The translations under genes were made by a program, and so were the position numbers. From IMG/VR virus record IMGVR_UViG_3300042400_001112, positions 1 through 46,768 of that record: 46,768 nucleotides of DNA. One strand, given 5' to 3'. How positions within the stretch are numbered: the first letter of the stretch is position 1; every line of letters starts with the position of its first letter. Shown here in pieces: positions 15,483 to 18,432 of this stretch. Under the pieces are notes generated by a model. That model saw nothing but the letters and a program-made list of their open reading frames with translations, searched no databases and was not told the origin of the DNA. Source of the DNA: a virus.

Positions 15483-16013
15483 ATGAAATATATATTGTTT
15501 GTATATCGTTGTGACGATAAAAAAAATGAGACAGAATTTGTTAGTGGTATTGCTCATGAAATCAGTCCTATTGTTAAATCTGATGAAATAAAATTTATTT
15601 TCGGGGAGACAAATGCAGTTTTTCACTTTGAAACTGAAATGTCTTTTCCCGAACTTAATATTTATATGGATTTAGTTAGTAAGGACTTTGAAAATTTTAC
15701 ATACTTTCTTATACCAAAAGGTAAAAATTTTGCAAGTAACATGGACGAAACAAATTTGAATCACCTTATGGAACTTTATCCAGATAAGAAAAAAAGAAAA
15801 CCAAAAAAAGGTATATTCGAATTACCAAAGATAAATCTCAATGAGGAGGAGTTTATTAAAAATTACCTTACATCATTTGACATTAAAGAAAAAAATGAAG
15901 ATACTTGTACGTTAACTGTTGATGAAATTTTGGATAAAATTTTGGATAAAGGAATTAAATCATTAACAGATGCGGAAAAAAATAAACTTGACGAGCATTC
16001 TAAAAATATATAA
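15483..16013 (+). CDS. Hypothetical protein with a Bacteroidota-type C-terminal motif
   Basis: A 176-residue soluble protein. The N-terminal part (KYILFVYRCDD, then FGETNAVFHFETEMSF) is a mixed alpha/beta domain I do not recognise. The C-terminal tail (VDEILDKILDKGIKSLTDAE, then KNKLDEHSK) closely resembles the short helical motif at the C-terminus of Bacteroidota rhomboid-like proteins (DUF6576-type). No membrane segment is present, so it is not a rhomboid. It shares an operon with the sigma factor one base downstream, so a role in transcription control is possible. Confidence 0.6.
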   Translation: MKYILFVYRCDDKKNETEFVSGIAHEISPIVKSDEIKFIFGETNAVFHFETEMSFPELNIYMDLVSKDFENFTYFLIPKGKNFASNMDETNLNHLMELYPDKKKRKPKKGIFELPKINLNEEEFIKNYLTSFDIKEKNEDTCTLTVDEILDKILDKGIKSLTDAEKNKLDEHSKNI

Positions 16014-16014
16014 T

Positions 16015-16815
16015 ATGAAAGATAAAAATGTTGGAGCACCAATAAATCAAGAAGAAATTCATCATTACCTTAAAGACATTAGGAAGATTAAAGTAATGAC
16101 ACCTGATAGGGAAAAAGAACTTGCTAAACTAATGAAATCTGATAGTTTAACATTAAAACAAAGACAACAGATTGAAGAAGAGTTACTTAAAGGTAACTTA
16201 AGATTTGTTATCACAGTAGCAAAACAATATCAAAATCAAGGTATGGATCTTTCAGACCTTATTGCTGAAGGTAATTTTGGTCTAATGAAAGCAATTAAAA
16301 ATTTTGATTGGAATAAAGATTTAAGATTTATTTCTTATGCGGTATGGTGGGTTAAACAATCCATTATTCAATCCCTTAACGACAACGCAAGAACTATAAG
16401 ATTACCTGTAAATGTTGTACAAGATTTACATAAAGCAAAAAAAGAGGTAGAACAAAACGGTAAAAAACTTGACGACAGATTCTCAACTCTACCATCTATT
16501 ATAGATTTAGATATGACTATTAATGAGGATGGAGACACTTTAATAGATATGATATCTAATCCTGATGCTGACTTACCTGATTCAGTATTTAATACAAAAG
16601 ATATTCTTAAAGATAAGTTAATGTCACTTTTAAATGTTTTAGATGATCGTGAAAAAATAATAATTGGGGATTACTTTGGTCTAACAGGAACACCAAGGAC
16701 ATTAGAAGATATTGGGACAGACTTTGGTCTAACAAAAGAAAGGGTTAGGCAAATTAAAGAAAAAGCATTACGTAGATTAAGAAATGATAGTTCAGAATTA
16801 TTTGATTACTTATAA
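16015..16815 (+). CDS. Phage-encoded RNA polymerase sigma-70 factor (RpoD-like)
   Basis: A 266-residue protein. ATG 16015 is preferred over an in-frame GTG-type start at 15970 because it follows the upstream stop at once. Region 1.2 is NQEEIHHYLKDIRKIKVMTP. Region 2 is NLRFVITVAKQYQNQGMDLS, with the -10-binding helix FISYAVWWVKQSIIQSLNDN. Region 4.2 HTH is TLEDIGTDFGLTKERVRQIK. Region 3 is abbreviated compared with host RpoD (about 290 residues in Bacteroidota). It resembles the primary, not the ECF or T4 gp55, class. It may redirect host RNA polymerase to phage promoters. Confidence 0.92.
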   Translation: MKDKNVGAPINQEEIHHYLKDIRKIKVMTPDREKELAKLMKSDSLTLKQRQQIEEELLKGNLRFVITVAKQYQNQGMDLSDLIAEGNFGLMKAIKNFDWNKDLRFISYAVWWVKQSIIQSLNDNARTIRLPVNVVQDLHKAKKEVEQNGKKLDDRFSTLPSIIDLDMTINEDGDTLIDMISNPDADLPDSVFNTKDILKDKLMSLLNVLDDREKIIIGDYFGLTGTPRTLEDIGTDFGLTKERVRQIKEKALRRLRNDSSELFDYL

Positions 16816-16826
16816 AAAATAAAATT

Positions 16827-17273
16827 ATGGGAAGTGTTATAGATTATATTGAATGTCCAAACTGTAGAAAAGAGGCTTTTAGTGACTACTATTATAAGAC
16901 AGGTGAAGAATATGTGGGGTGTAATAATTGTGGATATCATAGATCGGCTTTTTATAAAAGAGATGAAAATGGCAAACTTGTTACTAAAGACGGAACTGAT
17001 GATTATAAATTTGAAAATCTTATCATGGAATTTTCAGAACTTAAAAATCCTTTTGGTTCATATAAAATAAAGACTTACAACTCACCATCAACACAATGTG
17101 GATCTTTTGAAAACGAAGAACAATATTATGAATTTAAAAAAAACATTGAAGAGGACGTTGAAATAGAAGTTTGTTCAGTATCAAGGTTTATTGATGGTGA
17201 AATTAAATTTGAAGTTTTAATTGATAATGGACCTGAAGTAGATTCTTCCGGATTTATGGTTGAGGATAGATAA
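16827..17273 (+). CDS. Zinc-ribbon protein
   Basis: A 148-residue protein with an N-terminal zinc ribbon, C10-P-N-C13 and C32-N-N-C35 (YVGCNNCGYHRSAFY). An alpha/beta region that I do not recognise follows, with an acidic C-terminus. It comes 11 bases after the sigma-factor gene, which fits a transcription-linked role. The structured RNA candidate begins right at its stop codon, so that RNA could be its 3' UTR. Confidence 0.6.
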   Translation: MGSVIDYIECPNCRKEAFSDYYYKTGEEYVGCNNCGYHRSAFYKRDENGKLVTKDGTDDYKFENLIMEFSELKNPFGSYKIKTYNSPSTQCGSFENEEQYYEFKKNIEEDVEIEVCSVSRFIDGEIKFEVLIDNGPEVDSSGFMVEDR

Positions 17274-17406
17274 ACTGGGTTGAACCGAGATTACCCATAC
17301 AACTCGGCGTGATGGGACACGAGGATCCCTGGGTGAAACTCCTCAATTTTATCTATATGGTAAAATGAAACTACGCAACCTCCATCGGTACCGGTGGGGG
17401 TTTTTA
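17274..17406 (+). ncRNA. Structured RNA candidate with pseudoknot potential
   Basis: This gap is clearly richer in G and C than its surroundings and has no ORF of note. TGGGT (17276-17280) can pair with ACCCA (17293-17297), while CCGAG (17285-17289) pairs with CTCGG (17303-17307). The two helices interleave as an H-type pseudoknot. CGTG/CACG (17308-17321) with GGGA/TCCC (17314-17329), and GAGGA/TCCTC (17321-17344), give a second pseudoknot or alternative folds. ATTTTA/TAAAAT (17346-17366) forms a hairpin. CGT (17308-17310) could alternatively close on ACG (17373-17375). TGGGT(T)GAA occurs twice. A strong terminator ends it. It could be a stand-alone sRNA, a 3' UTR element or a leader of the next gene. 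It matches no riboswitch or ribozyme consensus I know. Confidence 0.6.
17377..17406 (+). terminator. Strong rho-independent terminator
   Basis: AACCTCCATCG (17377-17387) pairs with the strand 17392-17402 (ending GGGGTT) around a short GTAC loop, with a T tract running to 17405. Three G-T pairs occur in an 11-bp stem. It ends the structured RNA. Confidence 0.9.
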
Positions 17407-17442
17407 TTTATCTTTAATATTTATTAATTATAATATTTTAAT

Positions 17443-18432
17443 ATGAAAGAGAAATTTTTACCTTGGTTTTTATTATTTTGTGCATTAGGGTTATCAGGAA
17501 CCGCAGCTTATTATAGTGTTGTTGGATTATCTATTGTTTTTGTTGGGGTTGCCATTCCTGTTATTATAATGGGATCATTCCTTGAAATATCAAAAATAGC
17601 AATAGCCACTTATTTACATGACAAATGGAAAGAAACTTATGGGGTTTTAAAAATGTACCTCACAATTGCCCTTATAACTTTATCGTTGATAACATCATTA
17701 GGAATATACGGTTTATTAAGTACAGGTTTCCAAGGAAATATTGCAAAACTTGAAATAAGTGAAAAACAAATAAAAAATGTTGAAGTTAAGAAAAAAAGAT
17801 TTGAAGAAATAAAAACAGAATTAACAAAAGAAAAAACAACACTTGATGGGGACATTACAAAATTAAGAGATGGATTATCAACAAATACTACAACGCAGAC
17901 AGTAGATCAGAGAACAGGACAATTAATTACAAGAGCAAATAATGCAAATAGAAAATCTTTTGAAGGTCAATTAAAAGAGGCCCAAATAAGAAGAGATACA
18001 ATCTCAAAAAGAATTGATGGATATAATGACAGTATTACAAAACTTGATGTTCAGATTCTTGATATGCAATCACAAGATATTAATAGTAGTGAACTTGGGG
18101 CTATTAAATATGTTAGTGAATTACTTGATTGGGATATTAAAAGAACTGCAAATCTTTTTATTTTAATTTTGATTTTTGTTTTTGATCCACTGGCAATTAC
18201 TTTAGTAATAGCAACAAACCAAGCGTTTAAAGGAAAAAGAAAAAAAGATACAATAAATCTTACCCCACAAGTTACCCCACAAGATACCGACCAAGTACCG
18301 ACCAAGTACCGACCAAGTACCGACCAAGTACTTGATGATGAACTATTTAACAGTGAAGATATATTTGAGTTACAAAAAAATAAAGAAATTATTTCTGATA
18401 ACAAAAAAAGATTGGTATATAAGAAAGAGTGA
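17443..18432 (+). CDS. Membrane protein with central coiled coil
   Basis: A 329-residue protein. Three hydrophobic segments lie in the first 95 residues (FLPWFLLFCALGLSGTAAYY; VVGLSIVFVGVAIPVIIMGS; YLTIALITLSLITSLGIYGL). A long coiled coil spans about 100-225, and a fourth membrane segment follows (LFILILIFVFDPLAITLVIA). The C-terminal tail is polar and contains a DNA-level 11-bp tandem repeat. I recall similar proteins in T4-like marine phages, always uncharacterised. Ahead of an amidase and spanin-like genes it could take part in lysis, but it is far larger than a usual holin. Confidence 0.6.
   Translation: MKEKFLPWFLLFCALGLSGTAAYYSVVGLSIVFVGVAIPVIIMGSFLEISKIAIATYLHDKWKETYGVLKMYLTIALITLSLITSLGIYGLLSTGFQGNIAKLEISEKQIKNVEVKKKRFEEIKTELTKEKTTLDGDITKLRDGLSTNTTTQTVDQRTGQLITRANNANRKSFEGQLKEAQIRRDTISKRIDGYNDSITKLDVQILDMQSQDINSSELGAIKYVSELLDWDIKRTANLFILILIFVFDPLAITLVIATNQAFKGKRKKDTINLTPQVTPQDTDQVPTKYRPSTDQVLDDELFNSEDIFELQKNKEIISDNKKRLVYKKE
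18260..18331 (+). repeat. 12-bp and 11-bp tandem repeats inside a coding region
   Basis: TTACCCCACAAG occurs twice (18260-18271, 18272-18283). Then TACCGACCAAG occurs four times in perfect tandem (18285-18295, 18296-18306, 18307-18317, 18318-18328), followed by TAC. Since 11 is not a multiple of three, the repeat is read in all frames (TDQVPTKYRPSTDQV). Gain or loss of a unit would shift the reading frame. Confidence 0.95.

Follow-up and report, generated by a model that had tools for sequence, protein, structure and literature searches.

We analysed a stretch of 46,768 nucleotides of viral DNA (positions 1 to 46,768 of the IMG/VR record IMGVR_UViG_3300042400_001112), hereafter called the window, in which a structured RNA element is placed between a zinc-ribbon gene and a membrane-protein gene (17443-18432). 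A sigma-factor gene (15970-16815) lies upstream of both the zinc-ribbon gene and the element. Together with nearby primase, exonuclease, SbcC/SbcD-like and RuvC-like genes, it points to a large T4-like tailed phage. The element extends from 17276, the outer base of helix P1, to approximately 17406. The RNA is about 130 nt long in the window, and its longest versions, among divergent relatives, measure about 180 nt. The features are as follows.

16827-17273, plus strand: zinc-ribbon gene, immediately 5' of the element, with 3 nt between the end of its stop codon and the GGGT of P1
17276-17371, plus strand: conserved RNA core of 96 nt, modelled by covariance model R1 (110 bits, E 1.6e-25; alignments A1 and A2)
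17276-17280, plus strand: 5' strand of P1, TGGGT, pairing with ACCCA at 17293-17297; P1 crosses P2 to give an H-type pseudoknot
17293-17297, plus strand: 3' strand of P1, ACCCA, pairing with 17276-17280
17285-17289, plus strand: 5' strand of P2, CCGAG, pairing with CTCGG at 17303-17307; invariant in all copies
17303-17307, plus strand: 3' strand of P2, CTCGG, pairing with 17285-17289
17313-17330, plus strand: hairpin P3, stem TGGGA/TCCCT, closing C-G with a 3' bulge, pentaloop ACGAG
17331-17343, plus strand: hairpin P4, GGG-TGAAACT-CCT, with a 7-nt loop UGNRANN
17346-17366, plus strand: hairpin P5, 8 bp, followed by conserved GAAAC at 17367-17371
17377-17406, plus strand: intrinsic terminator, 11 pairs (17377-17402), loop of 4, T-rich tail; 3' end of the RNA

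The R1 match to the core is the only strong one in the window, which holds a single copy. Two observations concern the flanking genes. The zinc-ribbon protein has a sub-threshold Pfam match to the restriction-alleviation protein Lar (E 0.00058). Immediately 5' of the membrane gene, at 17410-17442, an A+T-rich box (TATTTATTAATTATA...) is kept in nearly all relatives and may be a promoter that the phage's own sigma factor recognizes.

A near-invariant pseudoknot followed by variable hairpins

Folded as a single sequence, the element is weakly supported (z -1.98; 7 of 200 shuffles fold as well). We therefore give the comparative evidence from 48 distinct copies (alignment A2), from which R1 was built. 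The named structure is paired in 96.6% of the cells, compared to 35-49% when it is slid along the alignment. Compensatory cells number 127 versus 40.7 in shuffles, and the covariation score is 0.293 versus 0.154. Ten pairs change on both sides: the outer pair of P1, four pairs in P3, one in P4 and four in P5. Covariation across relatives, which the original prediction had named as its check, is thus present. RNAalifold independently recovers P2, most of P3, P4 and P5.

The outer pair of P1 is A-U in 25 copies, U-A in 17 and unpaired in six, and the four inner pairs are invariant. Because P2 and the inner part of P1 do not vary, what backs them is complementarity; the evidence for the proposed pseudoknot thus consists of a single covarying pair together with perfect complementarity. 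Scans in which the 3' strand of P1, the 5' strand of P2 or all loops were left free did not retrieve any copy with a changed pseudoknot stem, and neither did a scan asking for the P3 region alone; together they added copies with few loop changes. The 5' pseudoknot is therefore nearly invariant, while P3, P4 and P5 diverge. Four copies (L047, L176, L177 and L199) carry joint changes in the pseudoknot loops, T to C in L1 and T to A in L2 (GGGTCGAACCGAGATAACCC), which may mark a tertiary contact.

The covarying stems of P3 include GAGA/TCTC, GGTG/CACC, GGGA/TCCC and AAGA/TCTT, with CTGAAC/GTTCAG and TGAATG/CATTCA in divergent copies, and the pentaloop of the family is ACGAN or CTGAA. In P4, the outer pair is A-U in 22, G-U in 16 and G-C in 9 of the 48 copies, and the loop is compatible with a T-loop as well as with a GNRA-type loop. 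Two divergent groups have a longer stem in place of P4, so the P4 hairpin as such is dispensable. P5 is 97.4% paired in the 48 copies, with 26 distinct stem pairs.

Most of the helices in the original prediction reappear in this consensus. The GC-rich patch is real (43-46% GC, versus 24-35% in the flanks), the crossing helices TGGGT/ACCCA and CCGAG/CTCGG correspond to P1 and P2, GGGA/TCCC is P3, the predicted hairpin is the A+T-rich P5, and the 11-bp terminator was found at 17377-17402. The second set of crossing helices did not hold up: CGTG/CACG and GAGGA/TCCTC occur in this copy or a few only, relatives having mostly CGGAA and, for example, GATGT at these places. The twice-repeated TGGGT(T)GAA turned out to be P1 plus P4 rather than a conserved repeat (many relatives have AGGTGAA), and no conserved counterpart of the possible closing helix was found.

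A family of RNAs in uncultured phages

Approximately 90 IMG/VR contigs carry the RNA, and an exact 18-mer search gave 87 contigs. With the membrane protein as bait we fetched 80 IMG/VR loci, a number of which have a near-identical element upstream of the membrane gene. Two divergent groups (L081/L088 and L096/L117/L120/L148/L161; those scored reach 62-73 bits) retain the pseudoknot, CGGAA, P3 and P4. They are equipped with a promoter of their own and a terminator, and are found in different genomic surroundings; the L096/L117 group has an extra 3' domain. We infer that the carriers are uncultured tailed viruses of Bacteroidetes-type bacteria, because of the promoter type and because the membrane protein has a 33% match to a Flavobacterium phage.

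Exact pseudoknot patterns are absent from all 84,980 species genomes of bacteria and archaea that were scanned. A DNA search of cultured phages gave no match to the RNA, and one of plasmids gave only weak partial matches of about 25-35 nt. Model searches of Flavobacterium phage immuto, of an uncultured 735-kb phage, of a Microcystis phage and of a 635-kb phage with a relative of gene X (see below) gave nothing above chance. Pattern hits in L167-L174 and L200 were discarded as chance matches, the rest of the motif being missing. Against Rfam 15 the window has no match at the gathering threshold, and the best sub-threshold hits are chance-like (E >= 0.5), in line with the earlier remark that the element resembles no known consensus. 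Rfam searches over the loci of divergent copies gave no match at the RNA, and ARAGORN found no tRNA or tmRNA in the window or in selected loci. Among the open-access papers searched, none was found to describe such an RNA in Bacteroidetes phages. We conclude that the RNA is a real, previously uncatalogued small RNA gene and represents a new family of structured small RNAs of phages. R1 and the consensus provide a ready covariance model for this family, which is missing from Rfam.

Two ways of being transcribed

We surveyed 65 distinct contexts of the RNA, and the terminator is found in all of them. A -7 box TAnnTTTG, of the established Bacteroidetes promoter type, ends 11-23 nt before GGGT in 20 contexts (1.2 expected from shuffles), 13 of which also have TTG at a -33-like spacing. 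In 36 contexts the RNA directly follows the stop codon of a long ORF, at a distance of -1 to 17 nt and most often 3 nt. No context (0/65) has both the promoter and the upstream stop codon. By inspection, several of the remaining nine either continue from an ORF that is shorter or truncated, or show a promoter-like site at a greater distance. The window copy lies behind the zinc-ribbon stop codon without a promoter of its own, and as that codon ends 3 nt before GGGT, the RNA is here the 3' end of the zinc-ribbon mRNA. Among relatives the upstream gene varies (sigma factor, zinc-ribbon, others, or none where the RNA has its own promoter), and the downstream gene is in many cases convergent, on the opposite strand.

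Whatever precedes, the 5' boundary is sharp at P1. Because a promoter or an upstream ORF is combined with a terminator that is always there, the unit runs from P1 to the terminator, with transcription supplied either way. Judged from these arrangements, the RNA would be transcribed in two alternative modes, either independently, from a Bacteroidetes-type promoter of its own, or as the tail of an mRNA that begins upstream. With a promoter in 20 and a terminator in all 65 contexts, it has the transcription unit of its own that characterizes trans-acting small RNAs; these elements, and the different or absent upstream genes, support the phage small RNA that had been among the options originally put forward.

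The fused arrangement, seen in the window and in most copies, is also what one would expect of a cis-acting 3' UTR element, whose pseudoknot and terminator would protect or regulate the mRNA that they end (sigma factor, zinc-ribbon or others). The 36 contexts within 17 nt of a long-ORF stop codon favour it, but the 20 with their own promoter have no gene in front, and the upstream genes are mutually unrelated; we consider it rather unlikely. The narrower proposal of a 3' UTR element of the zinc-ribbon gene stands as far as position here and in some relatives is concerned, and fails wherever the RNA comes after the sigma-factor gene, a different gene or a promoter of its own.

A second candidate small RNA was observed near the sigma factor, at approximately 3690-3850 of L021 (plus strand) and 7430-7600 of L127 (reverse-complement coordinates). 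It has a Bacteroidetes-type promoter (TATCTTTG), conserved GTCGGGAAGCTTACTCC...GTGTGTCGGGTTTAAATTCCTCGAATCGGACCGA and a terminator, and Rfam gave no family at threshold over L021. In L131 and L136 a shortened remnant of it precedes the present RNA, to which it is fused.

An accessory cassette, often next to a putative RNA endonuclease gene

Each contig with a match has one copy of the RNA. On the tree of the membrane protein, up to 13 changes are needed to explain which members have the RNA, and well-supported branches require at least six of them; of two identical membrane proteins, one comes with the RNA and the other without. All 37 checked relatives that have no copy near the membrane gene also lack the RNA elsewhere on the contig, although these contigs may be fragments. 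The loci L032 and L033 illustrate modular exchange next to the sigma factor: between flanks that are 97% identical, L032 alone has a cassette of promoter, RNA, terminator and gene X, which takes the place of a bare terminator. From these comparisons, the RNA is an accessory single-copy cassette that has been gained or lost repeatedly.

Gene X is a convergent gene for a protein of about 125-151 aa, often located just beyond the RNA terminator.

L030:3535-3957, minus strand: gene X, single-copy accessory gene; relatives in alignments A3 and A4

Of the 36 membrane-gene loci with the RNA, 22 have gene X after it, and gene X also accompanies both divergent RNA types, in other contexts. Its predicted structural model (pLDDT 78.5) resembles models of viral site-specific RNA endonucleases (E 8.7e-5), and weakly matches T4 RegB in the PDB (E 0.23, poor superposition). 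Gene X is thereby predicted to encode a RegB-like site-specific RNA endonuclease. The RNA might then be an inhibitor, guide or substrate of this enzyme, as the frequent adjacency and the likeness of the model would suggest. However, the structural match to RegB is weak, large contigs of 214, 273 and 292 kb have the RNA without gene X, and the reverse is seen at 19 loci, where gene X is present and the RNA missing. Strict dependency is rejected, as each occurs without the other. We regard the proposed relationship as unlikely, and functional pairing of the two as a lead, no more.

Proposed function

We hypothesize that the RNA is an accessory trans-acting small RNA of phages, whose pseudoknot binds a conserved partner, a reading to which we give an even chance. 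The accessory distribution, combined with independent expression, favours an RNA that acts in trans on such a partner during infection. The RNA would accumulate as a discrete, terminator-capped molecule. Because the 5' knot hardly changes while the rest does, the RNA probably acts on its own, gripping the partner. Conservation of both pseudoknot arms, with the rest free to vary, suggests a site recognized by shape and sequence, not an antisense seed. The near-invariant pseudoknot would be the working site and its partner most likely a protein or ribonucleoprotein, of host or phage, with P3-P5 mainly serving to scaffold and stabilize the pseudoknot. Repeated gain and loss as single-copy cassettes makes an optional role in infection, in which for example a host factor is sequestered or modulated, more likely than one in a core step of the phage cycle.

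We speculate further that the pseudoknot is the core of a new class of functional RNA, with which the phage inactivates or reprograms some conserved machinery of the host, be it a defence nuclease, RNA polymerase or the ribosome, and which has spread as a small phage cassette, sometimes together with a RegB-like RNase; this is possible, yet on balance doubtful. Phage RNAs that act by structure and not as antisense are few. As structural support is clear, the core near-constant and the distribution patchy, the partner can be sought directly by RNA pull-down.

The accessory distribution, solitary copy and frequent own promoter are also what might be expected of a counter-defence decoy mimicking a host RNA, such as a CRISPR repeat in the manner of Racr or a type III antitoxin in the manner of pseudo-ToxI, and both principles are known in phages (PMC10651486, PMC3475682). 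Against a decoy, which we hold to be quite improbable, stand the absence of the exact pseudoknot patterns from all 84,980 genomes, meaning that no host sequence copied letter for letter was seen, and the lack of tandem repeats and of an adjacent toxin. A self-cleaving ribozyme, which would free the RNA from the upstream mRNA at its 5' boundary, could account for the compact, near-invariant pseudoknot core with conserved adenosines and for the sharp start at P1; it is still less probable, as no Rfam ribozyme matches and many copies start near P1 from their own promoter, so that cleavage would be unneeded.

A leader or riboswitch controlling the membrane gene, an option of the original prediction, agrees with the location of that gene, which in the window and in some relatives starts some 165-200 nt farther on and is read from the same strand, but is refuted by the terminator that always lies between, by a convergent next gene in many relatives and by divergent phages in which the RNA is far from the membrane gene; with a terminator in 65 of 65 contexts, the RNA does not occupy the 5' UTR position of a cis-regulator, and we give this reading very little credence. 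Least credible of all is that a short coding sequence (TTG AAC CGA GAT TAC CCN ... stop) explains the conserved 5' stretch: a TTG-started frame of 10-13 codons is open in most copies, but third codon positions in P1 and P2 are invariant, L047 and L199 have lost the start, the frame of L199 has a one-base insertion, and one-base indels follow in P3.

Comparison with known systems

The trans-acting RNA that we favour can be set beside several known kinds of RNA. One comparison is with species C and D of T4, small stable RNAs with no known function, also from a T4-like phage. Phage small RNAs known so far are mostly base-pairing regulators. In contrast to these, what is conserved in the RNA described here is both arms of a pseudoknot instead of an unpaired seed. 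It shares with phage small RNAs that it is small, phage-encoded and terminator-ended, and made from its own promoter or at an mRNA 3' end (review PMC12197685).

The manA and wcaG motifs, from T4-like cyanophages, lie in 5' UTRs (PMC2864571). Such candidates were likewise recognized by covariation in T4-like phages or metagenomes and their function is unknown, but the present RNA lies outside 5' UTRs and does not match an Rfam model. Racr RNA anti-CRISPRs of phages mimic CRISPR repeats (PMC10651486). They are similar in being solitary accessory RNA units of phages, and differ in that the exact patterns of the core described here occur in no searched bacterial genome. From a type III antitoxin the RNA is set apart by its single copy per contig, with the membrane gene or gene X as next gene. 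Unlike ToxI, it has neither tandem repeats nor a ToxN-type gene in the transcript, and its core has three more hairpins; what it has in common with ToxI and the phage mimic of ToxI (PMC3475682) is an H-type pseudoknot RNA with a terminator.
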